A stretch of 64,000 nucleotides of DNA from Chloroflexota bacterium (lineage in GTDB: Bacteria; Chloroflexota; Dehalococcoidia; Lucifugimonadales; Lucifugimonadaceae). Below the pieces are notes generated by a model. It did not search any database. It was given only the letters and a program-made list of their open reading frames with translations, and was not told where the DNA came from. The stretch spans positions 120,860 through 184,859 of the forward strand of contig PCAM01000002.1 in NCBI GenBank assembly GCA_002730555.1, read 5' to 3'. Positions 29,793-56,117 of this stretch are shown in pieces; positions within the stretch are counted from its first letter, which is position 1; every line of letters begins with the position of its first letter. Made by a program: the position numbers and the translations under genes.

Positions 29793-29868
29793 TGCGCCGG
29801 ATAGCTTCTCATGCCCCTGCGCTGGACCGCTAGCGTAATTACCCGGTAGACGCGAGAAGGGCGGGCCT

Positions 29869-30375: not shown

Positions 30376-30652
30376 GGTTGATGCGTCGTTCACAGGCCCT
30401 CACACCCTTTAGATAAACCTGATTCTGACCCCGGAGGCACATCTATTCGGGCGTGATTTCTGGGCATGAATCACGCCAATTCGCGCCGTTCAACCTCGTT
30501 AAAATCGAACGAATTTACCGGCAACGAAAACCCTTGAACTCCTAAACCACACCCTTCCGCCACAGAGGATCGACATCGGTTTACCGCCCGGGCTCCGGCC
30601 ACGCTGAAATACCCCAATCAGATGCCACCGCCGGGCGGCACCCCCCGCGCCT

Positions 30653-32128: not shown

Positions 32129-32298
32129 TTGAGCGCTTTCTGGTTGGGTTAGGGTGGATAGCCGAAGGGCGGCCCGCCCTTACGTTACCTGCACTTCGGA
32201 GCGCACCTTACCAGCAGACCGGGACGCGCGAACACGGTGCTAACCTGACCACACTCTGACCCCTTCCCGCTTTCACCAGCCCAACAAGAGGAATTCCC

Positions 32299-33297
32299 AT
32301 GCCCACCGACACCGTCAGATACGGAATGATCAGCACGGCGAAGATCGGTATCAACGCCCACATCCCGGCGGCGGTGAAGTCGCACAACTCGGAGATCGTG
32401 GCGATATGCAGCCGGTTTGACGGGCCGGCGAAGCAGGCGGCGGAGGAGAACGGGATCGGGCGCTGGTACGGCTCTTACGAGGAGCTGCTTGCCGACCCCG
32501 ATATCGACGCCGTGGTCAACCCGCTGCCGAACTCGATGCACCACGAATGGACCATCAAGGCCGCAGAGGCGGGCAAGCATATCCTGTGCGAGAAGCCGAT
32601 CGCCGTGACGATGGACGAGGTGCGGGAGATGACCGCCGCAGCCGAGGCGAACGGTGTACTGCTGGTCGAGGCGTTCACCCACCGGCTGAACCCGCACATG
32701 CGACGGGCGCGCCAGCTGGTGGGCGAGGGCGCTGTCGGCGATGTGCGTCATTTCGAGGCGGTTCTGGCATTCACCTCCCGTGACACGTCGACCGATGTGC
32801 GGTTGAAACCGGAGCTTGCCGGGGGCGGGCTGTGGGATGCTGGCTGTTATTCGGTATCGGCGGCGCGTTTCATCCTCGGCGGGGAGCCGGTCAGAGCGGC
32901 CGGGTTCGCCGCCGATTCGGGCAACTATGGTGTCGACACCTCGTTCTCCGGGCTGCTTGAGTTCCCGGGCGGGGCAATCGCACACATGCGGAGCAGCGTG
33001 GAGCAGCCGGGCACCAACATGGGTGAGGTTATCGGGACAAAGGGCAAGATCAGGATTCCACATTTATTCGAGGAGGACACCCCGCTGGTGATCACCAACG
33101 CAGACGGCGAGGAGCGCGTGGAGACGTTTGCCGGTGAGCCGCGGTTCGTGGTGCAGTTCAACGACTTTTCGGAATGCGTCCTGACGGGCAAAGCGCCGGA
33201 GTTCCCACCGGAAGATGGGCTCGCAAATACGGCGGCGGTACTGGCGCTTTATGCCTCGGCAAGCAGCGGTCAGATCACGGCAGTCGAGCGGGTGTAG
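32299..33297 (+). CDS. Gfo/Idh/MocA family oxidoreductase
   Basis: RYGMISTAKIGINAHIPAAV, NPLPNSMHHEWTIKAAEAGKHILCEKPIAVTMDEV. Confidence 0.95.
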   Translation: MPTDTVRYGMISTAKIGINAHIPAAVKSHNSEIVAICSRFDGPAKQAAEENGIGRWYGSYEELLADPDIDAVVNPLPNSMHHEWTIKAAEAGKHILCEKPIAVTMDEVREMTAAAEANGVLLVEAFTHRLNPHMRRARQLVGEGAVGDVRHFEAVLAFTSRDTSTDVRLKPELAGGGLWDAGCYSVSAARFILGGEPVRAAGFAADSGNYGVDTSFSGLLEFPGGAIAHMRSSVEQPGTNMGEVIGTKGKIRIPHLFEEDTPLVITNADGEERVETFAGEPRFVVQFNDFSECVLTGKAPEFPPEDGLANTAAVLALYASASSGQITAVERV

Positions 33298-33299
33298 CG

Positions 33300-33674
33300 A
33301 TGGCGACGACCTACGATCGAATTTACGCGGACGAGGACGGCGGGAGCCACTTCGAGACGGTAGAGGTGTCATTCCAGGAGGTGGATTACGCGCCGCCGGC
33401 CGATCCGATGTTCGTCTCAGACCTTGAGGATGCGTCTCGATTTGGGTTCGTGATGGCGCCGCACGGACCGCTTGGCGATTGGCATCCGACTCCGTTGGCG
33501 CAGTACATGATCGTGGTGTCGGGCGAGGTTGAGATTACGGTCAGCGACGGGGCGAAGCGCCGGTTCTCGGCCGGACAAGCCTTCCTGTTGGCTGATGAAA
33601 CCGGCAGGGGTCATTACACCGAGATAGTTTCCGGCGAGCCGGGTGTCGTGGCGGTGGTGCATTTGCCGGATTAG
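33300..33674 (+). CDS. Cupin domain protein
   Basis: Start at MATTYDRIYADEDGGSHFE 3 bp after the upstream stop; GDWHPTPLAQYMIVVSGEVEITVSDGAKRRFSAGQAFLLADETGRGHYTE. Confidence 0.8.
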   Translation: MATTYDRIYADEDGGSHFETVEVSFQEVDYAPPADPMFVSDLEDASRFGFVMAPHGPLGDWHPTPLAQYMIVVSGEVEITVSDGAKRRFSAGQAFLLADETGRGHYTEIVSGEPGVVAVVHLPD

Positions 33675-33687
33675 GGCGATGCGTGTG

Positions 33688-33995
33688 TCCGCTCTCCAGA
33701 CGGGAGAGGGTTGGGAGCCTGCCCTTCGGCTTGCCGGAAGGGTGAGGGGGTTCAAGATTCCGCACAAACGTTATGTCTTCGCTAGATGAACTGTTGGTGA
33801 AGGTCCCTCGTCCTTCCGGTACCGGAAGGATCGGGATGACGAATGGGTGTGGTCTGGCCGTTGGGGGGCGGATTGGTATCCGCCCATGCCGGTCCTTCGA
33901 GAGCCTCAGGATGGGTTTGGGGATCGGACGGGCGCGACACCAACCCACGCTGAGGCTCTCGTGGCCTGTGCTGAGCCAGTCGAAGTGGGCGGGCG
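33688..33995. repeat. Composite block of palindromic repeats (types A, C, B, D)
   Basis: ccgctctccagacgggagaggg; ggtgaaggtccctcgtccttccggtaccggaaggatcgggatgacg; ggggcggattggtatccgccc; ccttcgagagcctcaggatggg with inverted acccacgctgaggctctcg and cagtcgaagtggg. Confidence 0.8.
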
Positions 33996-34014
33996 GTACT
34001 GGAGACCAGTCCCG

Positions 34015-34488
34015 TTAAACCGGCCGTCGTAGCACCAGGAACTTGCGGCGCAGGCTGAGGATCTGCTCGTCGCGCTGGTTGTGGGCGATCGTCTCGGCGT
34101 ACACGACTCCACGGTCCGGCTTTGATCGGGACGGTGTGACCGACAGGATCTCTGAGGCGGCGTAGATCGTGTCGCCGATGTGTACCGGACCGTCGTGCTT
34201 GACGGTCTCGTACTCCAGGTTGGCAATCGCTTTACCGGACAGCGCACGCACGGTCATGCCGACGACGATGGAGAACACCAGCGTGCCGTTGACGAGGATC
34301 TTCCCGTGCTGGCCAGCGCGGTTCCACTCCTCATCGATATGGAGCGGATGGTGGTTCATCACAAGAAGGCTGTGGATGTGGTTGTCGGCCTCGGTGATGG
34401 TCTTGCCCGGCCAGTGCTTCCAGGTGTCCCCTACCTCGAATTCCTCAAGGTAGTTGCCGAAGCTGTCTCGTTCATCATATGCGGTCAC
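34015..34488 (-). CDS. MaoC-like dehydratase
   Basis: FEVGDTWKHWPGKTITEADNHIHSLLVMNHHPLHIDEEWNRAGQHGKILVNGTLVFSIVVGM. Confidence 0.9.
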   Translation of the reverse strand: MTAYDERDSFGNYLEEFEVGDTWKHWPGKTITEADNHIHSLLVMNHHPLHIDEEWNRAGQHGKILVNGTLVFSIVVGMTVRALSGKAIANLEYETVKHDGPVHIGDTIYAASEILSVTPSRSKPDRGVVYAETIAHNQRDEQILSLRRKFLVLRRPV

Positions 34489-34549
34489 AGGCGTTCCTCT
34501 GATCCTCTCGTCCTCTGGTCCGGCAATCGGCGTTTGGGCCGAGAGACTT

Positions 34550-34586
34550 CTCCCTCACCCCGGCCCTCTCCCGCTAGGAGAGGGGG
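34550..34586. repeat. Palindromic repeat type A
   Basis: ctccctcaccccggccctctcccgctaggagaggg. Confidence 0.8.
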
Positions 34587-34601
34587 ATGTGACGCTGGGA
34601 T

Positions 34602-35825
34602 TTAGCGGGCGTCATGCCTTGTCTGGTTTTTGTACTGGATTCGGGCGGCCAGGCTGTAGATGTCGATGAAGCCGGTTGCCGCTTTGTGGTCGAATGCATC
34701 GTCTGTAGAGTAGGTCGCGAGGCCGAAGTCGTAGAGCGAGTACTCGGAGCGGCGGCCTGTCACGACAACGGCGCCTTTGTAGAGTCGCGCGCGGACATCT
34801 CCGGTGACGTAGCGCATGGTGCTGTTGATCATGGCGTCAAGGTCTTCACGCATGCCGGTGAACCAGCGGCCGTCGTACACGAGGTCGGCGTACTGCTGGC
34901 CGACGTAGGCGCGCATCCGTTGCTGGTCGCGTGCTAGACATGCGGTCTCCAGCGCCCGCAGCGCGTCGTTCAGCACTATCGCGGCAGGCGTCTCGTACAC
35001 CTCACGCGACTTGATGCCGACGAGCCGATTCTCAAGATGATCGATGCGTCCGACGCCATGCTCACCGGCGATGCCGTTGAGCCGCTCGATCAGCGCCACA
35101 CCGCCCAGTTCTTTACCGTCCAGCGCGACCGGCACGCCCTGCACGAAAGCAATTTCCACATCGACAGCCTCGTCCGGCGTGTCGGTAGCACGGCGGGTCC
35201 ACGAGTAGGCGTCCTCCGGCGGCTCGAACCAAGTGTCCTCAAGGTCTTCGCCCTCGATCGCCTGCCCCCAGAGGTTGCGGTCAATTGAGTAGACCCGCTG
35301 GTCGTCTCCGACCTCGCGCACGTCCAGTCCGGCCTTCGCCGCGTACAGCTTTTCTTCGTCACGGGACATGCCCCATTCGCGGGCGGGGGCGATGATCTTC
35401 AAAGGGTCGCCGTGGGCGGCGAGTGTCATGATGCCGGCATCGAAGCGGACCTGGTCATTGCCCTTGCCGGTGCAGCCGTGGGCGACCGCGGTCGCACCGA
35501 CCTGCCGTGCGGCCTCGACCAGCTTCTTGGCCATGAGCGGGCGTCCGAGCGCGGTCGAAAGCGCGTAAACACCTTCATACATGGCTCCGGCTTTGAGGCC
35601 GTTCCAGATGTAGCCCTCAACGAACTCGTCGCGCACGTCCCAGATCAGGGACTCGGTCACGCCGGCCTGCCTGGCGCGGTCACGCACGCCGTCAAGCTCA
35701 GGGCCTGCGCCGAGGTCCACGGTGAGCGTTACGACGTCCATGTCGTACTGCTCCTGTATCCACACTGCACTGATGGTGGAGTCCATCCCACCGCTATAGG
35801 CGAGGACGCATTTTTCTCTGGGCAT
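34602..35825 (-). CDS. argG: Argininosuccinate synthase
   Basis: CVLAYSGGMDSTISAVWIQE, AVAHGCTGKGNDQVRFD. Confidence 0.96.
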   Translation of the reverse strand: MPREKCVLAYSGGMDSTISAVWIQEQYDMDVVTLTVDLGAGPELDGVRDRARQAGVTESLIWDVRDEFVEGYIWNGLKAGAMYEGVYALSTALGRPLMAKKLVEAARQVGATAVAHGCTGKGNDQVRFDAGIMTLAAHGDPLKIIAPAREWGMSRDEEKLYAAKAGLDVREVGDDQRVYSIDRNLWGQAIEGEDLEDTWFEPPEDAYSWTRRATDTPDEAVDVEIAFVQGVPVALDGKELGGVALIERLNGIAGEHGVGRIDHLENRLVGIKSREVYETPAAIVLNDALRALETACLARDQQRMRAYVGQQYADLVYDGRWFTGMREDLDAMINSTMRYVTGDVRARLYKGAVVVTGRRSEYSLYDFGLATYSTDDAFDHKAATGFIDIYSLAARIQYKNQTRHDAR

Positions 35826-35935
35826 TGTTTTTTCCTGGGGATGTTCTCGACGGGGAGGTTGTTTGGGAACGACCGGTGTGGCGCCCTCGTTGTTTTACTT
35901 TGGTTGGGATTATTGTGCGTCCGATTGACAAACTT

Positions 35936-35970
35936 TTCCCTCACCCCAGCCCTCTCGCACCGGGAGAGGG
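35936..35970. repeat. Palindromic repeat type A
   Basis: ttccctcaccccagccctctcgcaccgggagaggg. Confidence 0.8.
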
Positions 35971-36200
35971 AGCATCGTGGCGACGAGGTTCTATCGGACG
36001 CAAATCCGGCCCGGGGGTTGACGCCGGGCACGCGGTTGTCAAGTTTAGAGGCGACTGCCTCGGGAATCTATGCTGTCGGCGTGAAAGCCGGAGACGCACC
36101 GTACTTCGAGAGCCTCAGCATGATGCGTCTCCTGGAGTTTGCGTATTAACGGTCGCCCTTCGAGAACCTCAGGGAGCGACTTTGAGAATCTCTGGAACGA

Positions 36201-37403
36201 TTACGCCCCGAACACCTTCGCCAGTGCGTCATCCAGGATACCGACCGCTTCGTCGATCTCTTCTTCGCTGGTTGTGAGCGGCGGCATGAAGCGGATCATG
36301 TTGGGCCGCACGGCGTTCAACAGCAGGCCGTTCGCCACCGTCTCGGCGATCACAGCGCCTGCGTTGTCCTCGCTCATCTGGATCGCCAGCAGCATTCCCA
36401 TGCCGCGGACCTCCGTGATGAAGTCGTACTTCTCCATGAGTCCGATGAGCTGGCCTTTGAGGTAAGCGCCTGTTGCGGCACCCTTCTCGGACCAGTTCTC
36501 GTCGACCACAACCTTCGCCCCGGCGGCCCCGGCGGCGGTGGTCAGCGCGTTTCCACCGAAGGTAGAACCGTGATCTCCTGGCTCCAGCACGGCGTACTCC
36601 TGCTTGCACAGGAAAGCGCCGAGCGGCGCACCCGCGCCGAGACCTTTCGCCATGCTGATGGCGTCCGGCTCGAACCCGAACTGCTCGTAACCGAACAGTG
36701 TGCCGAGACGGCCCATGCCGGTCTGCACTTCGTCGGCGATCAAAACCAGGTCGTTCTCGTCGCACCACTCCCGCACCTGCTTGAAGTAGTCGGGCGCGGG
36801 GACGTTCACGCCGCCCTCTCCCTGGACCGGCTCGAGCATCACGGCGCATGTCTTTTCGTTGGTCGCCGCTTTGATGGCGTCGATGTCGTCATAGTCGACG
36901 TTCACGAAGCCTGGAGCGAGCGGCCGCCAGTTGTCCTGGTAGTGCGCCTGCCCGGTGGCGGCCATCATACCCATCGTCCGGCCGTGGAACGAGTTGTTGG
37001 CGGTAATGATCTCGTAGGCGCCATTCTTGTTGATCTTGCCGTACTTGCGGGCAAGCTTGCAGACGCCCTCGTTGGCCTCTGCGCCGGAGTTGCAGAAGAA
37101 GACCCGGTCCATGACCGAGTTATCGATCAAAATCTGGGCCAGCTTGAGCTGCGGAATCGTGTAGAACAGGTTGGACATTTGGAGGATCTTGCCGGCCTGC
37201 TCCACGATGGCCGCGGTGACGGCGGGGTGGGAGTGGCCGACGTTCAGGACGGCCCACCCGGCGGTGAAGTCCAGGTAGCGCTTGCCGTCGGTGTCGAACA
37301 CACATGTACCTTCGGCGTGGTCGAGGACCATCGGCATGCGGTTGACGACCTGCATGTAGTAGTCGGCTTCGATCTGCTTCCACTGTTCGCCTGTCGTGGG
37401 CAT
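36201..37403 (-). CDS. argD: Acetylornithine/succinyl-diaminopimelate aminotransferase family
   Basis: Start at MPTTGEQWKQ; NSGAEANEGVCKLARKYG, LIADEVQTGMGRLG, DHGSTFGGNALTTAAG; sits in the arg cluster. Confidence 0.9.
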   Translation of the reverse strand: MPTTGEQWKQIEADYYMQVVNRMPMVLDHAEGTCVFDTDGKRYLDFTAGWAVLNVGHSHPAVTAAIVEQAGKILQMSNLFYTIPQLKLAQILIDNSVMDRVFFCNSGAEANEGVCKLARKYGKINKNGAYEIITANNSFHGRTMGMMAATGQAHYQDNWRPLAPGFVNVDYDDIDAIKAATNEKTCAVMLEPVQGEGGVNVPAPDYFKQVREWCDENDLVLIADEVQTGMGRLGTLFGYEQFGFEPDAISMAKGLGAGAPLGAFLCKQEYAVLEPGDHGSTFGGNALTTAAGAAGAKVVVDENWSEKGAATGAYLKGQLIGLMEKYDFITEVRGMGMLLAIQMSEDNAGAVIAETVANGLLLNAVRPNMIRFMPPLTTSEEEIDEAVGILDDALAKVFGA

Positions 37404-37630
37404 GTTGGTGCTCCTGTTGTTGTTCCGGGGGTTGTTGGATTGGGTTGGTTCGCCTTCCGTGTCTATTGCAGGGCGGGCGCAGGGCGGATAGTCATTCGCC
37501 CCCACGGTATTTCGTTCTTTTCAGGTGGCCCCGGGGATCGTTCGGTCCCCCAGAGCCGGTGTTCGTGTACGTTCGTCTCCCGGGTTCGGAAGGTGCGTCA
37601 ATATACACCCCGGCTCGCTTCTGACCGCCA

Positions 37631-38464
37631 TCATGTGATCCTCGTGCCGATCTCGTTGCCGGCGACGCATTCGAGCAATGCACCGGCGATCCGGCCATCG
37701 ATGATATAGCCAGCGCGGACCTTCTCAACGGCGAGGGCGCAGGCCTCTATCTTGGGGATCATTCCGCCGTTGGCGATGCCGCTGTCGATCAGGTCCATCG
37801 CCTGCCTGCGCGTCATGCGGGGGATGAGCCTCCGGGTGAGGTCAAGCACACCCGACACGTCTGTCTGGAACACCAGCAGCGCCGCGCCCAGCGCCGCGGC
37901 TAAGTGGCCTGCCGAGGTGTCGGCGTTGATGTTGAGGATGCGGTCGGAGCCGTCCTCTTGTTCCGGAGCGATGTTCAGGGCTGCCGGGGCGATCACCGGG
38001 ATGGCGCCGGTCTCCAACACGGCCACGATGGTAGTGACATCGGTCCGCACGATCTTGCCGACCATGCCCAATCCCGGGTCAAGGACCTCGGCCTTGAGCA
38101 TCCCTCCATCTATGCCGGCCAGCCCTACAGCCTTCCCGCCGGCGGCCGAAATCTCTGCCACAAGCTGCGCGTTCACAAGCCCGCAAAGAACCGCGACGGC
38201 AACGTCCAGCGTCGGCTTGTCCGTCTTCCGGAGGCCGCGCACGAACTCGGGCTGGATGCCCTGCAGGCGGACCCAGTCCGAGATCACCTTGCCCCCGCCG
38301 TGGACGACGACGGGCTTGAGGCCCTGATCGCGCAGCGTTATAAGGTCGGGCATGGTGGAGTCGCCCTTGCCGAGGGTGGACCCGCCGACCTTGACCACGA
38401 CGACATCGCCTTCGCGAGCGCCTCGTCCGCTTCTTCTAATGCGTGATCCGCTTACGGATGTCAT
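37631..38464 (-). CDS. argB: Acetylglutamate kinase
   Basis: VVVKVGGSTLGKG, VVVHGGGKVISDW, LNINADTSAGHLAAALGA, GGMIPKIEACALAV; exact start uncertain. Confidence 0.93.
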   Translation of the reverse strand: MTSVSGSRIRRSGRGAREGDVVVVKVGGSTLGKGDSTMPDLITLRDQGLKPVVVHGGGKVISDWVRLQGIQPEFVRGLRKTDKPTLDVAVAVLCGLVNAQLVAEISAAGGKAVGLAGIDGGMLKAEVLDPGLGMVGKIVRTDVTTIVAVLETGAIPVIAPAALNIAPEQEDGSDRILNINADTSAGHLAAALGAALLVFQTDVSGVLDLTRRLIPRMTRRQAMDLIDSGIANGGMIPKIEACALAVEKVRAGYIIDGRIAGALLECVAGNEIGTRIT

Positions 38465-38492
38465 CTTGCTGACCGCTTCAACTTTGCCCGGT

Positions 38493-39956
<1,464 letters not shown>

Positions 39957-40208
39957 TATTGCAGTTTAACCGTCAAGAGCGCAATAGTTCAGGTAAATAT
40001 GGTGCCACAGGAGAGCAAGAGAATTCGGGTGTCACGATGCAATTGGTGTTGCATTCGATTGTTGACAGGAACTGGACTATTGCACCTGGCGGTATCTGGG
40101 CCCGTTCGACGATGCGGCGGCGTACAGCGAACCATGCGGGTGATACGATGCCGTCTCCGATCAATATCCGCACCGTCGCTTCGGCGAGGGCAAACGACAG
40201 GAATCCGA

Positions 40209-40772
40209 TTGCAGAACGGCAATAGCAACAACCTGGTCTGGCTAGACCTTGAGATGACGGGACTCGAGCCGGAAAAAGATGTGATCGTCCAGATAGCGGC
40301 GATCGTTACCGACCGGGATCTGAATGAGATCGCAGAACCGGTCGAGTTCACAATCTGGCACCCGGCCGAGACGACGGACCGCATGACGCCGTTTGTGCGT
40401 GACATGCATGAGCGCTCCGGCTTGCTGCGGCAGATACAGAAGTCGAAAACCTCGCTGGAAGAAGCCGAGCGGGAGGTGCTGACGCTGGTTTCGATGCACT
40501 GCGAGTACGGAACCGCGCGCCTGTGCGGGAACTCTATCTGGCAGGACCGGCGCTTCCTTGAGCGCTACATGCCGGCGCTCGTGAACTACCTGCACTACCG
40601 GATGATCGATGTGTCATCGATCAAGGAGCTGGCCGGGTGGTGGTACGGGATTCAGCACCGAAAGCCGAAGGGCGCCCAGCACACAGCGCTGTGGGATACT
40701 CGGCAATCGATCGCCGAGTTGAAGTACTACCGTGAGCAGCTGTTCAATCCGGAGGTCGAGAGCGCCGAGTAG
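40209..40772 (+). CDS. orn: Oligoribonuclease
   Basis: TTG start; NNLVWLDLEMTGLEPEKDVIVQIAAIVTD, LCGNSIWQDRRFLERYMP, HTALWDTRQSIAELKYYRE (DEDDh). Confidence 0.93.
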   Translation: MQNGNSNNLVWLDLEMTGLEPEKDVIVQIAAIVTDRDLNEIAEPVEFTIWHPAETTDRMTPFVRDMHERSGLLRQIQKSKTSLEEAEREVLTLVSMHCEYGTARLCGNSIWQDRRFLERYMPALVNYLHYRMIDVSSIKELAGWWYGIQHRKPKGAQHTALWDTRQSIAELKYYREQLFNPEVESAE

Positions 40773-40891
40773 GGCTGGAGAATCCTGAATCAAGTTCAGG
40801 ATGACAGCGAACATGCCCGGGGGGCGATACCAGAGGCAGCAGAGTTTTTTACCGACTCTTCGCCCACCACGCTCGTCGGTAACCACACCCG

Positions 40892-41227
40892 TTACACGGC
40901 CTCTATAGATGCTCCTATTGAGAAAGACTGGAGCCGGTCGCGATAGAACTCGGCGGTTTCCCTCGGGCAAACGGTCACCGTGGCTTTGCCCTCAAGATGT
41001 GCGTCCATCATCACCTGGACGGCGTCCTGTTCGCTGAGCGTCGGCACGGATTTCAGGAGCGCGTCCACCACGTGTTCCATCGAGTTGACATCGTCGTTGT
41101 GCAGGATAACGGCAAACCTGGGAACGTGTTCCGTCAGCGAACGCTGTAACGCCTCTTGCTCGACGTCCGGGCTCACCAGTGCCGGGTCGGTCATTTCCAG
41201 GGACCGGGTATCAGGCATGAACGTCAT
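40892..41227 (-). CDS. clpS: ATP-dependent Clp protease adaptor ClpS
   Basis: RFAVILHNDDVNSMEHVVDALLKSVPTLSEQDAVQVMMDAHLEGKATV. Confidence 0.93.
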   Translation of the reverse strand: MTFMPDTRSLEMTDPALVSPDVEQEALQRSLTEHVPRFAVILHNDDVNSMEHVVDALLKSVPTLSEQDAVQVMMDAHLEGKATVTVCPRETAEFYRDRLQSFSIGASIEAV

Positions 41228-42116
41228 CGGTCTCCGTGGAGAGCGTTCCGTACAGGTCCGGCCTTCGGTCCCTGAAGAACGGGGTCAGGCGGCGAGTATT
41301 CTCGAAATGGCTCCGATCAAGGTCGGCCACGATGATGTCGTCCCGTTCTTCCGCCTGCGCCACCGTCTCACCGTCCGGGCCCACTAGCCTGGTGCCGCCG
41401 TAGAACACCGCCTTCCCCTCTATGCCGACGTGGTTTACGGGCGCCAGGTAGGCAACGTTCTCGTACGCGCGTGTCTGTGTTAACGACTCCCACCAGCGCA
41501 TCCAGCGCTCTCGGTCCAGGAACTCTTCGCCCGCTACCCCTGGCGCGCTCGTGTGCTCCGAGTTGTGCTCGGAACCGAGATAACCGGCCGGGATGCAGTA
41601 CGGCACGATGATCAGCTCTGCGCCTTTGACGGCCAGGATCCGGGCGCTCTCCGGAAAGGACAGGTCGTAGCAGATGTTCACCCCGATCTTCCAGCCCAGG
41701 ATATCGATGACCGGGAACTTTGTCCCGTACCGGAAGTAAATCTTCTCCACGGCCCGCAGTCCGGCCGGATGGGTCTTCCGGTACTTTTCGATTATCCGGC
41801 CTTTTGGGTCTATCACCATCGCGGTGTCATAGTAGAGACCGGGCGCCTCTTCTTCGTAGATGGTCGAGATTATGTGGACGCCGTGCTCGCGCGCCTTGTC
41901 CTTGACCCGGCTTGTCGCGACGCCGTTGTCGGGCTCCGCCCAGGACTGGTACTCGAGGTCTCGGAACTGGGCGAAGTAGATGGCGTTGAAAAACTCCGGC
42001 AGGACGATCAGTTCCGCGCCATGATCACGCACAGCCCTATCGATGTACTGGCAAGCGCGATCGACGTTCCCGGGGCGGTCTTCCGTCGCGTTCATCTGTA
42101 TGAGGGCAAGGCGCAT
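41211..42116 (-). CDS. Carbon-nitrogen (nitrilase superfamily) hydrolase, N-carbamoylputrescine amidase/beta-ureidopropionase-like
   Basis: Start MRLALIQMNATEDRPGNVDRA; LIVLPEFFNAIYF, GRIIEKYRKTHPAG, GWKIGVNICYDLSFPESARILAVKGAELIIVP. Confidence 0.92.
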   Translation of the reverse strand: MRLALIQMNATEDRPGNVDRACQYIDRAVRDHGAELIVLPEFFNAIYFAQFRDLEYQSWAEPDNGVATSRVKDKAREHGVHIISTIYEEEAPGLYYDTAMVIDPKGRIIEKYRKTHPAGLRAVEKIYFRYGTKFPVIDILGWKIGVNICYDLSFPESARILAVKGAELIIVPYCIPAGYLGSEHNSEHTSAPGVAGEEFLDRERWMRWWESLTQTRAYENVAYLAPVNHVGIEGKAVFYGGTRLVGPDGETVAQAEERDDIIVADLDRSHFENTRRLTPFFRDRRPDLYGTLSTETDDVHA

Positions 42117-42399
42117 TGGTGACCTTTTCTTGAGCGCTTGCTGGTGCTTTTGGAGATGCGAAGTGCATCCCGGCAAGAATCATCGCCCGGGAATGTTAGC
42201 GGACACCTCGAACCTCCGTTAGCCCTTCGGCCCGTGCCGGCGAAGTCCATCTTCCGTCCCGCCTCCCCATTCAAAACCCGTGCACCGCCCCGCCTCGCTC
42301 CGGTATTTCGGCGCGTCCGAGTTACACGGGTTCGAACTCCGGGACGTGGACTTGTATTCGGAACGCATACGCATTTGGCACGGGAAGGGCAGGCGCGTT

Positions 42400-42444
42400 T
42401 GGTGGGCCCTGTCGGATTCGAACCGACGGCCTGCGGATTAAAAG
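42400..42444 (-). other. tRNA-Lys(UUU)-like 3' half (candidate att site)
   Basis: Minus strand: TTTTAATCCGCAGGCCGTCGGTTCGAATCCGACAGGGCCCACCA = anticodon-loop 3' part, T-arm (GTCGG-TTCGAAT-CCGAC), 3' acceptor AGGGCCC, CCA; no matching 5' half upstream. Confidence 0.75.
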
Positions 42445-42539: not shown

Positions 42540-43337
42540 TCAACTAGCCAGTGTCCCGCTGAAAACTTGCCATGCCAGAGCTGACTTCGAGGTCAGGCTG
42601 AGGAGGATATAGACAGACTCCCCGAACAGGTAATCCCGCCAGGGTCCGACGCGCTTGTATTGAAGGACCATATTCACGGCGAAACTGTTGAAGAAGATAA
42701 AAAGTGAAATGAAGATGCCGTATACGAATGTGGGCGGCGATGCAGAAGTCGACGGGCTCCACACGTACAGGGCAATTACGATCCACGGGAAGATTCCCAC
42801 GATAACCCCGAACCAGTAAGACACCCAGCTGGGTTCACCGGGTTCCTCGTAGTGTTCCATCAACAGGCCGAACAGGATCATCGCGGCGTTGACACCAAAA
42901 AGGCAGAGCAACGCACCAATATCTCCGGACCCGGTGAGCAAGGCGATCAAAACGATCATGAGTGAGGCGCTAATCGAGTACTCCACCCAGCGCGCGTAAT
43001 TCCGACCACGCTCCAGATTCATTCGATACCACTCGGATACCCCCGGTGCAGCGATGATCCAGTGCGCGGCTGCCGAGATAAACAGGAATCCTGATACTCC
43101 CCAGGCAAGCCGGAACCGGAACAATTCGGCCAGCACAGGTGCTGAAGCACCCGGCGCATCCTGCAAGAACGTTGCCGTTACAGGTAATGAGAAGTCGTTC
43201 GCCAGTGCGAGAACGACGATCCCCTGGACGAAATGAAGCACCCCCATCGAGCCGTTAAAGATTCGGAGGCGCCGGTATCTGTGATCCGTGGGAATCCGAG
43301 GGGAATGTGGGCTAGGGAGCGATATGGATGAAGTCAC
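42540..43337 (-). CDS. Heliorhodopsin
   Basis: 265 aa, seven hydrophobic segments; NYARWVEYSISASLMIVLIALLTG (TM3, counterion Glu region) and RVGPWRDYLFGESVYILLSLTSKSALAWQVFSGTL (TM7, candidate retinal-binding Lys251, codon 42585-42587). Confidence 0.92.
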   Translation of the reverse strand: MTSSISLPSPHSPRIPTDHRYRRLRIFNGSMGVLHFVQGIVVLALANDFSLPVTATFLQDAPGASAPVLAELFRFRLAWGVSGFLFISAAAHWIIAAPGVSEWYRMNLERGRNYARWVEYSISASLMIVLIALLTGSGDIGALLCLFGVNAAMILFGLLMEHYEEPGEPSWVSYWFGVIVGIFPWIVIALYVWSPSTSASPPTFVYGIFISLFIFFNSFAVNMVLQYKRVGPWRDYLFGESVYILLSLTSKSALAWQVFSGTLAS

Positions 43338-43517
43338 TCGTTAATTCTCAACCCACATCCGAAGTGATCTCAACCTTGATGTGCCGCTGGCCCACTTCTG
43401 TCACTCGGTCTTCATCCCTGGGGCAGGCCACCTGGATCTTCCTGGGGTCTGGTCACCCCAGGTACGATGAAGGGTTGAGGCCTGGGCGATCCTTTCCCAT
43501 GGGCCTGCTACCCCGTG

Positions 43518-45275
43518 TTAACTCGTCACCCACTGGCCGAATACCGGGTACTGCGAGCAAACAAACTCGATGTAGGACGGCTGGCCGTTGTCGTTCGCTG
43601 CGAGTGCCCGTTCGAGCGCTCCGACGATGTCGGACGGCTCGGTAACGCGCTCCGTGTGCAGGCCAAACTCGGCAAGCGCCTTTGGCGTGTCGACCTCTTC
43701 GGGACCGAGCACGGCGTGTGTATATGGGTTGTGGCCGTCGCCCCAGAATCCCGGTCCGTAACCGGCGAATCCGCCGTTACTGATGTGCACCACGGTTATT
43801 CCGAGCTTGTGACGGACCGGCGACTCAAGGTTGCCGAGCATGTAGGCGAGCCCTGCCTCGCCGGTCACGGCGATCGAGTGTCGTTCCGGAAACGCCAGTT
43901 TTGCCGCCACCGCGGCAGCAAAGCTGAATCCGAGGGTCGATACATTCCCCCAGCCCAGGAAGCCGCGTGGGATCAACGTGTCGTACACCGTACTCAACTG
44001 GTCTCGGGTGGTGCCGGACTCGTGCGTGACGAACGAATTCCGAGGGTCCAACACTTCCATCATCCCGGCGTAGACGCGATACGGATTTATCGGCGTGTCG
44101 TTGGAGGTCATCAGTTCCTGGTATTTCGCCAACCCGGCCTCGCGAGACGCCTTGATCTCGGCGTGGACGCTGGGCGCGCTGCGGCCGCCGCCGGAGGTCT
44201 GCGCGGTTAGTTCATCGGTCAGGGCTTGCAGTGTGAAACGGGCATCGCCGATCAGGGCGTGATTCGTCTCGTATACCTTGTTGATATCCAGTTCGCTGAT
44301 ATTGCACTGGATGATGATTTTGTTATTGGCGTTGGGAATAGCGTGGCTGAACCTTCCAGGCGAAAGGCTTGAACCGACCGAAAGGATCAGGTCGCTCTTG
44401 GCCAGGTATTCGACCGTATGATCACCGCGGACGCCAACGAACAATGGATGATCTTCGGGCATCACACCTTTCGATTTGAGGGTGGTGATAACCGGGGAAC
44501 TGGCAAGTTCAGCGAACGCCTTCAGTTCTGTGGAGGCGCCGGCGTAGATAACGCCCTCTCCCGCATATATAAGAGGGTGCTCTGCCTTGAGAAGGAGATC
44601 GACGGCGGTGGTCACATCGGCCGGGTCCGGAGCGCTTTTGTAACTTTTGACCGGCGTGTAGGGATCTACCGTCTCGTCGTACTGACCGGTCGGATCCGGG
44701 ATGGCAAGAATCACGGGGCCAGGCCGCCCGTTCCTCAGCATGCTGAAAGCGCGACGCATGAACTCGGGGACACGTTCGGGTTTATCGACGTAGCCGTACC
44801 ACTTCGAGACCGACTTGAGACTACTGGTGATGTCGAAATGACTATTTTCAGAGCTACCGATTGGCGCTCCATCTGTGATGCAGAGCACCGGGGAGTTGTC
44901 CTCGTACGCCTGTGCCAGTCCGGGGTAGGCGTACTGTAGACCGGCCGCATTGACGCCGCCGTAGACGGTACAGACGCCGATTCGCTCCCCGGCCGTGATT
45001 CGGGAATAGGCGTCCGCTACGCCCACTGCGTAACGGTCATCACGCATCATCACCATCGGGACCCCCTCACGCCCGAGCGCGTTGTTCACGCGGCAGGACG
45101 GGAATACGGTGACCTGGTCCACGCCTTCCTGTTTCAGGATGCGGGCGATTCCCGTCGCTGCGTCGATGGTCAACGTCTCACCTGGCTTTCCGCGGTTCTC
45201 GATCTCTCTGTACCCGGCGCGTATCCCGGGCCGTGCGCCGCAAGTTAACACCGGCCCGTAATTGTTGCCAAACAC
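43518..45275 (-). CDS. Thiamine diphosphate-dependent enzyme (acetolactate synthase-like)
   Basis: IARILKQEGVDQVTVFPSCRVNNALGREGVPMVMMRDDRYAVGVADAYSRITAG, AVTGEAGLAYMLGNLESPVRHKLGITVVHISNGGFAGYGPGFWGDGHN; true start probably downstream of the ORF start. Confidence 0.85.
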   Translation of the reverse strand: MFGNNYGPVLTCGARPGIRAGYREIENRGKPGETLTIDAATGIARILKQEGVDQVTVFPSCRVNNALGREGVPMVMMRDDRYAVGVADAYSRITAGERIGVCTVYGGVNAAGLQYAYPGLAQAYEDNSPVLCITDGAPIGSSENSHFDITSSLKSVSKWYGYVDKPERVPEFMRRAFSMLRNGRPGPVILAIPDPTGQYDETVDPYTPVKSYKSAPDPADVTTAVDLLLKAEHPLIYAGEGVIYAGASTELKAFAELASSPVITTLKSKGVMPEDHPLFVGVRGDHTVEYLAKSDLILSVGSSLSPGRFSHAIPNANNKIIIQCNISELDINKVYETNHALIGDARFTLQALTDELTAQTSGGGRSAPSVHAEIKASREAGLAKYQELMTSNDTPINPYRVYAGMMEVLDPRNSFVTHESGTTRDQLSTVYDTLIPRGFLGWGNVSTLGFSFAAAVAAKLAFPERHSIAVTGEAGLAYMLGNLESPVRHKLGITVVHISNGGFAGYGPGFWGDGHNPYTHAVLGPEEVDTPKALAEFGLHTERVTEPSDIVGALERALAANDNGQPSYIEFVCSQYPVFGQWVTS

Positions 45276-46811: not shown

Positions 46812-49800
46812 ATGGACAGCCACTCGCTAGCGGCGGTGCGCAGGGTATCGTCCCCGAGACTCATGTCCTGGCGCCGCAGCACCTGGTGGATCCGAATCGG
46901 GCTGATGGCGGCCGTAATCGGCTTACTGGGCGCAACCGTTGCCTGGGTGGTTGACCACTCCGCGCTTACGCATGCATTCGCAACCGTCGGCAATCGCCCC
47001 TGGCTCGTCGTCGGATTCGTAATTGGGTATACAGCGGCATTCTGGCTGCGGGCGGAAGCGTGGCGCCTTCTGTTGCCGGGACTCGGCCGCATAGCTTCTT
47101 ACTCGGCGCTGCAAACGTCCCTGTTCGCCAACCATCTCCTACCGGTCAAGGCCGGGGAGATCGCTCGTCCGTACGTGGCAACCGCGCGCGGGATTCCCGC
47201 TCCACGCGCCGTGAGCACCAGCCTCGTCGCGCGACTCCTCGATTACCTGGTTCTCTTCTTTTTGGCGGCGGTGCTAATCCCCTTTGCGCCATCCAGCCCC
47301 GTGGGAGGGGACGCAGGGCTCCTTGTGTCAGGGTTGTTCCTCGCGCTGGGAGCCGGAAGCGTCGTGGCGCTGCGCCGCCTGCCCGTTCCAGAACGTGTGC
47401 CCGCGGCCGCACGCCCCCTCTGGACATCGCTCAAGCAGAGTCTCGACGAGATCTCAACGCGCCAGGCCGTCGGCGCACTTCTGCTGACGATTCCGGCCTG
47501 GATGCTCGAATCAGTGGCGTTGCTCGCCACCGTCCACGCTGTCGGGGGCGACATCAGCGTCCAGGCGGCGATCGCCGTCACTTCGTTCACGCTGCTGTTC
47601 CAGGTATTTCACTTCGCCCCGGGCGGCATCGGCGTCTATGAAGCGAGCATGACCGGCGCCCTGGGATTGTACGGCTTCTCGGTCGAAGACGCGTTGATGA
47701 TCGCGGTGGTGACGCACGGCCTCAAATTTGGCTACTCGTACACCTTCGCGGCGGTGTTCGCCGCTTACGAAGTGTTCAGGGCGTTGCCCTTCGGAAAGTC
47801 GAGCGTGGCTGACGCCGATGGCGAATGCGACGGACACGCTTCGCGGCTCGAAATAGTCGCGGCTCGCGCGTGGAACGTGCTCAATGAAGGCAAGCCTTTT
47901 ACACCGGTTTTCGCGGCGAACACCCTCCTGTTTCTGAGCATCCCCAGCCTGGCGGACGCCGGTTACTGGGCCCGGGCGGCCATTGCCGGCATCGCCATCA
48001 TTCCGCTTGGGGTGGTGTTCTACCGCTTCGACTTTCCGCTCTGGTTACGCACGGCGCTCTGGAGTTTCCTGTTCCTGTTTATCGCGCTATTCAAGACCGC
48101 GGACCTGGTGGCGGTAGGCGTTTCGCTAGGACTCTACCTGGGATTCACCATCATTCTCTGGGGTTCGGTCTATTACCACCTCCGCATCGGCATGCCGTGG
48201 ACGAACTTCACGCGTTTTTGGCGACTTGTGCTGGAGAACCCGGATCCCACGAGCGGGAACTTCCTTGAGCAGACGCCGAAGTTCTTATTGATGATCCTGA
48301 TGTTTGGTTACGTCATGGATGGGCCCTCAATCGCTTCCGTGGCAGCTGTCGAAGGATTCATCCTTTTCGTCGGGATCGCAGCGCTTTTACTGCACCAATG
48401 GTTCTTCACATGGGTCCCGGCATTGCCTTCGACACCTCTACGTGGCACAGGTCCGACTCCATCTCGGAGTGCCCGGCGGGTGATCGCGATCGTCATCGAC
48501 GGCTGCCGTGCCGACCGCCTGCGAGAGGCACATACGCCATTCATCGACAGCCTGAGACACGAGGGCACCGAGTACACGGACATGCGCACTGTGTATCCCG
48601 CGCGGACGGTCACGGCGTTTAGCTCGATGTTGACCGGGGCGCCTCCAGCCGTCCACGGGATGAAAAGCAATTTCGTACCCAACCTCGGGGTGAAGTGCGA
48701 ATCTGTATTCGACGTACTCGAACAGGGCGGTGAGAAGGGCCGGTTGGTCGGGATCGCACACCTGGTCGACGCCTTCGGCGAAGACCGCGTTAGCACCGTC
48801 AGCGCGGTCAACCACAACGATGAGATCGACCATGCCCTGGTCCGTCAGGCCAAGCGGGTTATGCGGGAGGAAGATCCCGACCTGCTCGTACTGCAGCTGT
48901 TGAGCGTGGATCAGACCGGTCACGCCCGGGGGAGTTATAACCGCGAGTACCTCGACAAGATCGAGATCACTGATCGCATCATCGAGGACTTCGTCGGGTG
49001 GTGCGAACGAGAAGGCTACATGGACGACGCGACCCTCGTGATCAGTTCGGACCACGGGCAGGGCATCGGTATAGGCGGCCACGGTCACCTGACCGAGAGC
49101 GAGCGCCGGGTGCCCTGCATCTTCCAGGGCACGGGAGTGCAAAAAGGGAGGGTAGTTGGCGAGACGCGGCATCTGACCGACGTTGCGCCAACCCTGTTGC
49201 ACCTGCTTGGCAAACGACCACCCGTCCAATCCGTAGGCCGAGATCTACTGGACTCAACAAACGACGCGGAAGTATCGGACGGCCCGGTTGCAGTGCTGAT
49301 CCCAGCTTTCAACGAGGCTGCGAATCTGCCCGGCACCCTTTCCCGTGTGCCGCGGACCGAGGTTCCGGATCTCCATGTAATCGTGGTGGACGACGGATCG
49401 AGCGACGACACAGCAGCCGTGGCCCGCCGATGTGGAGCGGAGACCGTGGTCCGGCACGAACGCAACCGCGGTCTTGGTGCTGCCCTACGCACGGCCCTCC
49501 ATACCGCCCGTGACATGAACGCCCGGGCCGCCGTCTATCTGGACGCGGACGGCGAGTACGACCCGGTGGAAATCTCTCTGTTGCTCGCCGACATCGAGGC
49601 AGGCCGGGCCGACTACGTGCTGGGCACGCGTGGGCGAGGTGGGAGCGAGGGGCAACGCATCGGGCGATACCTCGGCAACCGGGTGTTTACAGCCCTCCTG
49701 AACCTGGCTGCGGGCAGGCGTATCCGCGACGGCCAGACCGGCTTTCGCGCCTTCTCCCGGCGCGCCATCCAGGTGGCCGAGATTTCGCACGACTACAACT

Positions 49801-49958
49801 ACGCGCAGGTTCTGACGCTGGACCTGCTTCGGAAGGGTATGCGGATGTCAGAGGTGCCGATCACGTGGCGCCGGAGGCGTCGCGGTAATTCATTTATCGG
49901 ATGGCAGTACCTGTGGCGCGTTCCGGTCGGAATGGCGCGGGAACTGTGGACCGCTTGA
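46812..49958 (+). CDS. Three-domain fusion: lysylphosphatidylglycerol synthase TM-like (flippase-like) + alkaline phosphatase-fold phosphodiesterase + family 2 glycosyltransferase
   Basis: N-term LLPVKAGEIARPYVATARGIPAPRAVSTSLVARLLDYLVLFFL; middle VIAIVIDGCRADRLREAHTPFIDSL...YPARTVTAFSSMLTGAPPAVHGM...ISSDHGQGIGIGGHGHLTE; C-term VAVLIPAFNEAANLPGTLSRVP...VIVVDDGSSDDT...VYLDADGEYDP...GQTGFRAFSRRA. Confidence 0.9.
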   Translation: MDSHSLAAVRRVSSPRLMSWRRSTWWIRIGLMAAVIGLLGATVAWVVDHSALTHAFATVGNRPWLVVGFVIGYTAAFWLRAEAWRLLLPGLGRIASYSALQTSLFANHLLPVKAGEIARPYVATARGIPAPRAVSTSLVARLLDYLVLFFLAAVLIPFAPSSPVGGDAGLLVSGLFLALGAGSVVALRRLPVPERVPAAARPLWTSLKQSLDEISTRQAVGALLLTIPAWMLESVALLATVHAVGGDISVQAAIAVTSFTLLFQVFHFAPGGIGVYEASMTGALGLYGFSVEDALMIAVVTHGLKFGYSYTFAAVFAAYEVFRALPFGKSSVADADGECDGHASRLEIVAARAWNVLNEGKPFTPVFAANTLLFLSIPSLADAGYWARAAIAGIAIIPLGVVFYRFDFPLWLRTALWSFLFLFIALFKTADLVAVGVSLGLYLGFTIILWGSVYYHLRIGMPWTNFTRFWRLVLENPDPTSGNFLEQTPKFLLMILMFGYVMDGPSIASVAAVEGFILFVGIAALLLHQWFFTWVPALPSTPLRGTGPTPSRSARRVIAIVIDGCRADRLREAHTPFIDSLRHEGTEYTDMRTVYPARTVTAFSSMLTGAPPAVHGMKSNFVPNLGVKCESVFDVLEQGGEKGRLVGIAHLVDAFGEDRVSTVSAVNHNDEIDHALVRQAKRVMREEDPDLLVLQLLSVDQTGHARGSYNREYLDKIEITDRIIEDFVGWCEREGYMDDATLVISSDHGQGIGIGGHGHLTESERRVPCIFQGTGVQKGRVVGETRHLTDVAPTLLHLLGKRPPVQSVGRDLLDSTNDAEVSDGPVAVLIPAFNEAANLPGTLSRVPRTEVPDLHVIVVDDGSSDDTAAVARRCGAETVVRHERNRGLGAALRTALHTARDMNARAAVYLDADGEYDPVEISLLLADIEAGRADYVLGTRGRGGSEGQRIGRYLGNRVFTALLNLAAGRRIRDGQTGFRAFSRRAIQVAEISHDYNYAQVLTLDLLRKGMRMSEVPITWRRRRRGNSFIGWQYLWRVPVGMARELWTA

Positions 49959-50015
49959 CCGGAGTTACCAGATATCAAAGCTATCAAAGCTTCTAAACAC
50001 AGCAGGAGGACATAA

Positions 50016-50603
50016 ATGGAAACGGATTCACCAAGTTGGTTGGCGCCGCACGGCGTCGTGATCACAACGATGCTGGCGGCGCTAATGGCCCTGGCCATTG
50101 CTTGCGGGAGCGACGATGGCGAAGACCGGCCGGGCGTTCAGGTTCTAAACGAACCTGGCTCCGTTTCCGGATCGGTCTCAGGCTCCGTCTCCGGAACGGT
50201 GTCGGGGGCGCCCGGTGTGGTTGGAGAGAAACCAGCCGGGGCGCGTCAGGTCAACGTGGTTCTGAACGAGTGGGCAATAGAGCCGGAGGTTGATGTGGTG
50301 AGTTCAGGCGAGATCTTTTTCGTCGCCTCAAACGAGGGGCCGAACGATCCGCACGAACTCGTGATTATCCGCTCCGACCTTCCGATCTACCAGCTACCTG
50401 TAGACGAGCGCGGCTTCGTGCCCGAGGATGAAGTGGACTTCATCGGTGAGATCGAATCGTTTGCTCCGGGATCACAGGCCTCCGGTACTTTCGACCTCTC
50501 GCCGGGCAGATACATTTTCATCTGCAATATCGTCGAATTCGAGGACGATGAGTGGGAGAGCCACTACCTCGAAGGCATGCGCCTCGAGTTCACCGTTCAG
50601 TAG
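50016..50603 (+). CDS. Secreted lipoprotein with cupredoxin-like domain
   Basis: Lipobox-like ALAIAC; linker GSVSGSVSGSVSGTVSG; EWAIEPEVDVVSSGEIFFVASNEGPNDPHELVIIRSD...GTFDLSPGRYIFICNI. Confidence 0.75.
   Translation: METDSPSWLAPHGVVITTMLAALMALAIACGSDDGEDRPGVQVLNEPGSVSGSVSGSVSGTVSGAPGVVGEKPAGARQVNVVLNEWAIEPEVDVVSSGEIFFVASNEGPNDPHELVIIRSDLPIYQLPVDERGFVPEDEVDFIGEIESFAPGSQASGTFDLSPGRYIFICNIVEFEDDEWESHYLEGMRLEFTVQ
50158..50208 (+). repeat. Short in-frame 12-bp tandem repeat coding GSVS units
   Basis: ggctccgtttccggatcggtctcaggctccgtctccggaacggtgtcg = GSVSGSVSGSVSGTVS. Confidence 0.75.
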
Positions 50604-50615
50604 GAAAGGACGACG

Positions 50616-51644
50616 GTGACTAAGAGCATGCAAGGCACCCGGGCGTTAGCCCTTCTCGCGCTGTTCGCGATTCTCTCCGTGCTGGTCGCTGCGTGCGGCT
50701 CCGACAGCGATGACTCACTGGTCGTCTACTCGGGCCGCACGAGCAGCCTTGTGCGACCGCTGCTCGAGCAGTTCAACCGAGACACCGGCGTACTCATTCA
50801 GGTCCGGTATGCCAGCAGCGCGGCAATAGCAGCGCTGGTCCTGGAGGAAGGTGACAGGAGTCCGGCTGACGTGGTGTTCCTGCAGGACTCGGGAGCTCTC
50901 GGCGCGCTATCGGCGGAAGGCATGCTCACTCAGCTTCCAGGGTCCATCCTGGAACGCGTCGACCCGCAGTTCCGAGCAGCCAACGAAGAGTGGGTCGGGA
51001 CATCCGGGCGTGCTCGGACCGTCGTGTACAACACGGAAACGATCGATCCGGCTGCGGACCTTCCTGACTCGATCCTTGATTTCACGGACCCGCAGTGGAA
51101 GGGACGCCTGGGCTGGGCGCCCGCAAACGCCTCGTTCCAGGCGTTCGTCACCGGCATGCGTGTGTTGCTGGGGGACGCAGCGACCGAGGATTGGCTCCGC
51201 GGCATCCTGGCGAATGACGTGAGGGAGTACGGCAACAACATCACCACGGTCCTCGGGGCGGCCAGTGGTGAGATGGACGTCGGTTTCGTGAACCACTACT
51301 ACCTGGAGCGATTCCTCGAAGAGGAGGGGGAGGACTTCGGGGCGCGCAACCACTTCATCGGCAACGGCGACCCCGGCGCGCTCATCTTGACCGCGGGGGC
51401 AGGTGTCCTGAAGTCCAGCGGAAACAAAGACCGGGCGGAAGGGTTCATCAGGTACCTGCTGGAGGCGGACGCGCAGCAGTACTTCTCGGACGAGACGAAG
51501 GAGTATCCGCTGATCGAAGGCGTCGGTCCCAGCGGGAACCTGCCGCCGATATCGACGCTCGATCCTCCGGTGGTTGATCTCAGTGGCCTCGATGACCTGC
51601 GAGGAACCCTGAACCTGCTCAGAAAAGTCGGGGCACTGGATTGA
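50616..51644 (+). CDS. Iron(III) ABC transporter substrate-binding lipoprotein (FutA/AfuA-like)
   Basis: LVAACGSDSDDSLVVYSGRTSSLVRPLLEQFNRDTGVLIQVRYASSAAIAALVLEEGDRSPADVVFLQDSGALGALSAEGML; GTG start. Confidence 0.9.
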   Translation: MTKSMQGTRALALLALFAILSVLVAACGSDSDDSLVVYSGRTSSLVRPLLEQFNRDTGVLIQVRYASSAAIAALVLEEGDRSPADVVFLQDSGALGALSAEGMLTQLPGSILERVDPQFRAANEEWVGTSGRARTVVYNTETIDPAADLPDSILDFTDPQWKGRLGWAPANASFQAFVTGMRVLLGDAATEDWLRGILANDVREYGNNITTVLGAASGEMDVGFVNHYYLERFLEEEGEDFGARNHFIGNGDPGALILTAGAGVLKSSGNKDRAEGFIRYLLEADAQQYFSDETKEYPLIEGVGPSGNLPPISTLDPPVVDLSGLDDLRGTLNLLRKVGALD

Positions 51645-53140
51645 CCGATTCCGGGATCGCCCGACCGTTACCGGATGGGCCGGTTCTCTCCTCGGGGCGC
51701 CGGGTTCGCGGCCGGGCCCGGTCCTACGTTGTCGATAAGCCACTGATCGCAGGTGCGATCGCGATCTTTGCAATTCTGGCGATCGTTTACACGTTCTCGA
51801 TCGGGATCTGGGCCACGGCCGGGGCGAGCATTACGGCCGATGAGCCGTTCTACCTGCTCACGACTCAGAGCATCATCCACGACCGGGACCTTGATCTGAA
51901 CAACCAGTACGCGACCCGATCCTACACGGAGTTTTTTGACCACCGTGATGGACTGTGGAGACAGTCGGTCCCCGCGGAAAACGGCAGGCTGCTGAGCCCG
52001 CACAACCCCGGTCTACCGCTCCTGCTTGTGCCCGGGTACCTGGCTGGGCGGCTAGCTGGCGCCCAGGCCCAGATGCTTCTAATTACCGCCGCGACGTTCG
52101 CTTTCACTTATGTTCTAGCGGCCCGGCTTACTGACCGGCACGGTTTGAGTTTCCTGGCGACGCTCGGTATCGGTATCACTCCCACCGCATTCGTGTACTC
52201 GACCGAGCTCTACCCCGAGGTGCCGGCCGCATTGACCCTCGTGCTCGGCCTGCTGATCGTCACCCGGCAAGGCCGTCCCGGCGTGAGGGATGCGATCGCG
52301 CTGACCGTGCTCCTCAGCGCCATGATGTGGCTGGGGGTCAAATACGCGCCTCTCGGTCTGATCACTGCGCTAGTCTTCCTGGTGCGTGGCAACGGGAACG
52401 CGAGATATGTCTTCCTTGCGGCCTCAGCTGCTTCAGGGATCTACTTCGCGTGGTTCCATCTTGAGACCTACGGTGGGCTCACGCCGTACGCAGTCAACGT
52501 CATTTACGCCGGCGGGACCTCGACTGAGATAATCGAACAGCACCTCGCGTTAACTGACCGCTTCTATCGCATCTGGGGTCTGTTCATAGACGGGCGGTTC
52601 GGTCTGGCGCGATGGGCGTTCATCGTCTTCCCGGCTGTCGCGGGACTGGCATTACTCCCCTGGCACGGCTGGCGGCACCACGTGGTGCTGGTCCTGATCT
52701 CGACACAGCTTCTGATAGCCACCTTCGTCGCCATCACCATGATGGGCTGGTGGTTCCCGGGCCGCACGCTTGCCGTAGTGCTCCCGTTGCTGGTGATCCC
52801 GCTCACGCTCCTGCTGGCCGAGTTACCGACGAAGCTGAGGTGGATTGCAGGGCTGCTCGGCGCACACACGGTCGCGACCACGTTCGCGCTGGCACATGCG
52901 GGGCATGCCCGCGAGATTCGGTTGGCGGTCAACCCGTTCGAGATGAACTCACCTGTTTACCAGGGAATCGTCTGGCTGTTCCCGAACTACACGGCCTGGG
53001 ACGCCCACACCTGGGTGACAACAGTCGCCTGGCAGCTCGCGGCAATCTTAACGCTGGGAGTGGTCACCGCGACACAACGGCGTCGACGCGGCACGATCTC
53101 TTCCGTCAGCGTCCCGGCCGTTTGGGTTGACCGAGGTTAA
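51641..53140 (+). CDS. Polytopic membrane protein, GT-C/family 39-like glycosyltransferase candidate
   Basis: ITADEPFYLLTTQSIIHDRDLDLNNQY luminal D/E motif after TM1, about 10 TMs; 4-bp overlap with upstream gene. Confidence 0.65.
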   Translation: MTDSGIARPLPDGPVLSSGRRVRGRARSYVVDKPLIAGAIAIFAILAIVYTFSIGIWATAGASITADEPFYLLTTQSIIHDRDLDLNNQYATRSYTEFFDHRDGLWRQSVPAENGRLLSPHNPGLPLLLVPGYLAGRLAGAQAQMLLITAATFAFTYVLAARLTDRHGLSFLATLGIGITPTAFVYSTELYPEVPAALTLVLGLLIVTRQGRPGVRDAIALTVLLSAMMWLGVKYAPLGLITALVFLVRGNGNARYVFLAASAASGIYFAWFHLETYGGLTPYAVNVIYAGGTSTEIIEQHLALTDRFYRIWGLFIDGRFGLARWAFIVFPAVAGLALLPWHGWRHHVVLVLISTQLLIATFVAITMMGWWFPGRTLAVVLPLLVIPLTLLLAELPTKLRWIAGLLGAHTVATTFALAHAGHAREIRLAVNPFEMNSPVYQGIVWLFPNYTAWDAHTWVTTVAWQLAAILTLGVVTATQRRRRGTISSVSVPAVWVDRG

Positions 53141-53324
53141 TCGATTCGTATGGATGACGATACACGGGCTACCAGCGTACTCGGTTCACGGCGAAAATCG
53201 GTACCAATCTTCACCATGAACGGCCGCGTAAGGGGCCAGCACCTGCACCCGCGAAAGGAATCCCCGACAACGGTCGGCCAATCTATCGTTCAAGACCAAA
53301 GCTCTGGGTCCAGGTACATCTGAA

Positions 53325-55792: not shown

Positions 55793-56117
55793 TGTTCGCA
55801 TGGCCGAACTCCGATCGCAGTTCATCATTTGCTTGACATGCGGTTTGCCATTCCTCTAAACCTACAGGGCGTAGCCCATGGCAGAAACCCGGTGAGCCTT
55901 CACGCGGTCGAAAGAGGACCCTTCAACCGCCCATCGCGATCCATCCATCGACTACAACGTCCGAGTAAGGCCGTCCGCCCCGCAGTTCACCGGGCACACC
56001 CAGATCCGCGAAACACCCTCTACCACAGGCACAGCGGAAGATTCAGCCGCCACGAGGGTCACGACGCCCCGGTTACACTCTCGCCAATGCGCTGAGCTTG
56101 AAGACACGGGGGGCAAC

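Follow-up and report, generated by a model that had tools for sequence, protein, structure and literature searches.

A heliorhodopsin gene beside a decayed tRNA-Lys 3' half at the edge of a variable region in a Chloroflexota genome

The window analyzed here, a stretch of 64,000 nucleotides that closes contig C1 in a Chloroflexota genome of 2.57 Mb (91.7% complete), probably encodes a functional heliorhodopsin (HeR) that serves a SAR202-like bacterium as a light sensor, and this gene and the decayed 3' half of a tRNA-Lys gene likely form an old unit at the edge of a variable region (Table 1). The source organism appears to be SAR202-like, because the window also contains five tandem paralogues of the enolase superfamily (MR/MLE; window 500-7,026), and an expansion of such paralogues has been reported for SAR202 groups I and II (PMC6946804). 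The HeR itself is ordinary for its family, as is its location at a tRNA-bounded edge between conserved chromosome and variable region, and the occurrence of HeR in SAR202 is already known from a group II MAG (PMC6946804) and from isolate JH545 (PMC10444878).

Table 1. Features of the window that bear on the heliorhodopsin gene and its surroundings (window positions)
Feature	Positions	Strand	Remarks
Backbone colinear with congener G415 C43 (argG, argD, argB, argJ, orn, clpS, nitrilase, others)	12715..42131		Synteny
Nitrilase-family (CN_hydrolase) gene, last of the congener-syntenic block	41211..42131	-	Pfam and synteny
tRNA-Lys(UUU) 3' half (tRNA positions 32-76, CCA included)	42400..42444	-	95 bp downstream of HeR
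Heliorhodopsin gene	42540..43337	-	265 aa, GTG start; Lys251 Schiff base, Glu119 counterion, His35/His92
Upstream HeR flank kept with G415 and bin53p (L085); edge of the alignable HeR block	43338..43379	-	42 bp
ThDP-dependent enzyme, acetolactate synthase-like; below every NCBIfam cut-off shown	43518..45275	-	HeR neighbour here only
Variable stretch between the halves: flippase/phosphodiesterase/glycosyltransferase, SBP, UDP-sugar dehydrogenase, epimerase, sortilin-like, MFS, formamidase	46812..61628	+	
Degenerate tRNA-Lys 3' half with element-like left arm GACACTGC	61850..61919	-	Missed by the sequence-only reading

An earlier reading of the DNA, made from the sequence alone, had identified the gene product as a heliorhodopsin and proposed a search with the Pfam profile of this family. 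The search placed the protein firmly inside the heliorhodopsins (PF18761, residues 24-263, E=6e-98; 327 bits, cut-off 26.7 bits), and the NCBIfam equivalog model NF038020 agreed (322 bits, cut-off 100 bits); the match to the family models is full length. In the PDB, heliorhodopsins were the only meaningful matches, led by 48C12 and TaHeR (E ~1e-66 to 1e-70), and identity to the solved 48C12 structure is approximately 45%. The signatures quoted by the sequence-only reading for TM3 (RWVEYSISASLMI) and TM7 (YILLSLTSKSALAWQVFSGTL) are present as given, and the residue it named as the retinal-binding lysine, Lys251, aligns in TM7 with the Schiff-base K241 of 48C12. Both Lys251 and the TM3 counterion Glu119 (E107 of 48C12) are invariant wherever covered in alignments of 23 and ~120 homologues, and the same holds for Arg116, Ser123, Trp185, Ser247, and Trp256. 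His35 and His92 are retained as well. Leu is found at each of these two alignment positions (H23 and H80 of 48C12) in about 24 of 122 heliorhodopsins, and the Dehalogenimonas-like HeRs have both positions altered together. Ser250, which adjoins Lys251, is the sole position conserved to more than 85% at which the window HeR deviates; the residue just before the Schiff-base lysine is usually Ala (94%), with Ser in 7 of 121 sequences. The hydropathy profile comprises six peaks plus the TM7 stretch that bears the lysine, and an N-terminal loop contains five basic residues, which is consistent with a cytoplasmic N-terminus. As pairwise dN/dS between the window HeR and its three nearest relatives is only 0.10-0.12, the gene is maintained under long-standing purifying selection.

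With Lys251, Glu119, and the residues of the retinal pocket invariant, the protein most likely carries retinal on Lys251, uses Glu119 as the counterion, and has the inverted orientation of heliorhodopsins. It would then be no pump but a slow light sensor, through which a partner protein is modulated. Genes for phytoene synthase and an RPE65-type cleavage enzyme were not found in the 91.7%-complete genome, although the controls were positive; therefore, retinal probably is scavenged from outside the cell. Blh/BCD was not found in the genome either, in a search run without a positive control.

Among named HeRs, the closest relatives are those of a Dehalococcoidia bin (83% identity) and a Chloroflexi MAG from the Caspian Sea (80%), followed by HeRs of Acidimicrobiia (up to 69%). 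The window HeR, that of the congener G415, and the Caspian MAG form a clade with maximal support (SH-aLRT 100). Across the phylum, 39 of 301 sampled genomes contain HeR. Its distribution within the order is patchy (16/147 genomes), and the congener G428 lacks the gene. Viral contigs yielded only two HeRs, which are distant (42% identity). The HeR of the Dehalococcoidia bin53p (L085:3,986-4,780) has an in-frame TAG in TM3 where a congener has TCG; this may reflect a sequencing error or a pseudogene.

The surroundings of the gene fall into a conserved and a variable side. Contig C43 of G415 is colinear with the window from 12.7 to 42.131 kb (a 29-kb block) and G428 from 34.0 to 42.139 kb. Past 42,131 and 42,139, respectively, the window and both congeners diverge, and HeR is thus the first gene on the variable side. 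Approximately 270 bp beyond the synteny break lies the tRNA-Lys half. It begins exactly at the anticodon loop and shares 44 of 45 bases with the intact tRNA-Lys(UUU) gene that the genome of the window has elsewhere (G000:C12:131-206). ARAGORN and Rfam made no call at 42,400-42,444 because only the 3' half of a tRNA is present there. The remnant that had been noticed about 95 bp from the HeR stop codon is therefore real, and it lies on the same strand at precisely this distance. A tRNA-Lys half is also found approximately 150 bp past the HeR stop in G415 and bin53p, in another neighborhood. Assuming about seven halves per genome, a half would lie no more than 250 bp from any one gene end with a probability of ~0.0014. 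Since the same pair occurs in two relatives in different surroundings, the combination of HeR and scar must be older than its present site. The pairing is accordingly ancestral to the clade of the window organism, G415, and bin53p, with one or both sides exchanged since.

A second, degenerate tRNA-Lys half on the same strand at 61,850-61,919 forms a direct repeat with the first. The GC content falls from ~0.58 to 0.45 at 61.8-61.9 kb, the site of this second half, and changes only mildly at 42.4 kb. A synteny break (42,131/42,139) and a GC shift thus mark the two boundaries. No integrase gene was detected in the stretch; the contig ends at window position 64,000, and the proximal end is not seen. 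The three Phage_integrase matches of the genome are on contigs C3, C7, and C10, distant from both halves. The intact tRNA-Lys maps to a different contig (C12), 130 bp from the contig end, and is not physically linked to the halves in the window. A 62-bp sequence upstream of the ThDP gene (window 45,328-45,389) recurs with 89% identity just beyond this intact tRNA at the contig end (G000:C12:1-61) and probably is a dispersed repeat.

Halves of tRNA-Lys that start at tRNA position 32 recur among the genomes of the family, both arrayed and dispersed. In G415, such halves follow the intact tRNA at 4.7 and 7.6 kb downstream, and in G382 at ~2 and 3.7 kb downstream. Six halves have in common a non-tRNA left arm ending in CTGC, which fits an attachment-site remnant, but this arm is absent from the half beside HeR. 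In three congeners the upstream flank of the tRNA-Lys is conserved and the alignments end at the tRNA 3' end; in G000, G428, and G410, the contigs themselves end 10-200 bp from the tRNA-Lys. Arrays of halves without integrases are found between small metabolic modules in G415 (C43:16,603-8,911, L228), G382 (C1:1,890,467-1,894,239, L230), and G410 (C45:1-9,266, L232), either following the intact tRNA-Lys or at a distance from it. Two 3' halves of other tRNAs, Arg-CCU-like and Ser-like, also begin near the anticodon loop (G000 C7:2,647, L044, and C10:26,884, L050).

The most novel lead from these observations is the recurrence of tRNA-Lys halves as module boundaries, and the manner of gene shuffling behind them may be less familiar. 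It is possible, if rather doubtful, that tRNA-Lys(UUU) is a recurrent gene-capture site in the SAR202-like family, with an integrase that acts in trans or has been lost and a crossover at the anticodon loop, and that HeR moved between loci by this route. Capture would leave 3' halves between small catabolic modules, several of them with a common CACTGC left arm; in one genus, a half would be left behind HeR, which would so shift its locus. If true, this would help explain the build-up of catabolic paralogues in SAR202, and the half-sites may mark a route by which these bacteria collect accessory genes.

Little can be learned about the function of HeR from its immediate neighbors in the window, and its closest relatives are found in a different setting. 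The sequence-only reading had expected the ThDP enzyme and the polysaccharide genes to be informative. The whole window was compared by blastn and tblastn with loci of 3-21 kb around 92 related HeRs, and this expectation was not borne out: none of the neighbors is conserved beside HeR, and tblastn found weak, scattered homologues at most. The blastn alignments were confined to the HeR gene, with the exception of short repeats, the tRNA half, and, for G347, argJ. The proximity of argJ and HeR in G347 was judged a coincidence, and the nitrilase and ArgD-like matches near two other HeRs are not orthologues (31-36% identity). The neighbor that has been re-formed repeatedly across Chloroflexota and Actinomycetota, often with a photolyase, is an SDR that combines an NmrA-like with a DUF2867 domain. 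This SDR-DUF2867 was found adjoining HeR or in its vicinity at 15 distinct loci in four arrangements, divergent from, upstream, or downstream of HeR, and it is accompanied by a photolyase in G382, G431, and L154. Eight of the 13 HeR-positive genomes searched encode it and none of the six HeR-negative ones (Fisher p 0.017, indicative only, as the genomes are related). It was not found in the genome of the window. An AF2 model of this protein (mean pLDDT 78.6) resembles NDUFA9-like and NmrA-like SDRs in its N-terminal part; among the top 50 structural matches, none was distinct for the C-terminal domain. A role as retinol dehydrogenase is therefore speculative. SDRs have been listed among the operon partners of HeR (PMC11109279), and a photolyase is near HeR in JH545 (PMC10444878).

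The genomic setting invites other explanations. According to the sequence-only reading, HeR arrived with an accessory island, as cargo integrated at the present tRNA-Lys scar. Much of its basis stands: the scar exists, the first gene beyond the 29-kb syntenic block is HeR, which lies between two same-strand halves (42.4 and 61.9 kb), and the distribution of HeR is patchy down to its absence from G428. Arrival with the present island is nevertheless unlikely, because in G415 and bin53p a scar of this kind accompanies HeR in another neighborhood, so that the pairing predates the site. Moreover, no other island gene travels with HeR, integrases are lacking near either scar, and selection on the gene is long-standing. 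Instead of a scar, the half could be an RNA element with a function of its own, such as a signal for processing or for the 3' end of an mRNA, given that it lies behind HeR on the same strand at three loci (window, G415, L085) and that its T-arm is able to pair. However, the arm pairing is lost in bin53p, a terminator-like U run is absent, other tRNA-Lys halves lie behind or on either side of unrelated genes, and the halves of other tRNAs likewise begin near the anticodon loop; such a function is extremely improbable.

It is also very unlikely that HeR is a relic without pigment in this organism. Neither phytoene synthase and RPE65 nor the usual SDR partner was found, and the bin53p gene has its TAG in TM3, but dN/dS of ~0.1 against relatives and the retention of every key residue are at odds with decay. 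A single substitution accounts for the bin53p stop, which may be an error; the title of the contig states 3.7x coverage. The reading preferred here, a working light sensor whose gene and scar form an old unit of a genus-level clade, places this unit where the argJ-orn-clpS-nitrilase backbone yields to the variable region. The latter may have been built by repeated integration at tRNA-Lys with crossover at the anticodon loop, and the HeR-scar unit would have been relocated. The missing integrases, the location of the intact tRNA-Lys on a separate, unlinked contig, and the lack of the CTGC arm in the HeR-adjacent half speak against integration.

In comparison with known systems, the published SAR202 HeRs (PMC6946804, PMC10444878) and the window HeR belong to the same phylum and probably to the same clade. 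G382, with two HeRs and a photolyase-SDR-HeR arrangement, fits the published description of JH545 (PMC10444878). Unlike the published SAR202 HeRs, the window HeR is single, has no adjoining photolyase or SDR, and lies beside a tRNA-Lys scar. HeR-SDR pairs constitute one of ten groups of HeR neighbors (PMC11109279); relatives of the window HeR with an adjoining SDR resemble these pairs, whereas the genome of the window lacks the SDR, and the SDR of the relatives is NmrA-like with DUF2867. With 48C12 and TaHeR, the window HeR has in common the full-length match, the Schiff-base lysine, the Glu counterion, the His pair, and a pattern of hydropathy and charge that would suit a cytoplasmic N-terminus; it differs by Ser250 in place of the usual Ala before the lysine. 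Islands of the tycheposon type, which are integrated at tRNAs, are bounded by 3' halves of tRNAs that start at the anticodon loop, and they have a hypervariable downstream side and modular cargo. The window can be likened to these islands, with which it has the half boundaries, the variable downstream side, and the modular cargo in common, but the halves of the window family differ in that no integrase is nearby, the segments span one to few genes, and the halves are dispersed as well as arrayed.
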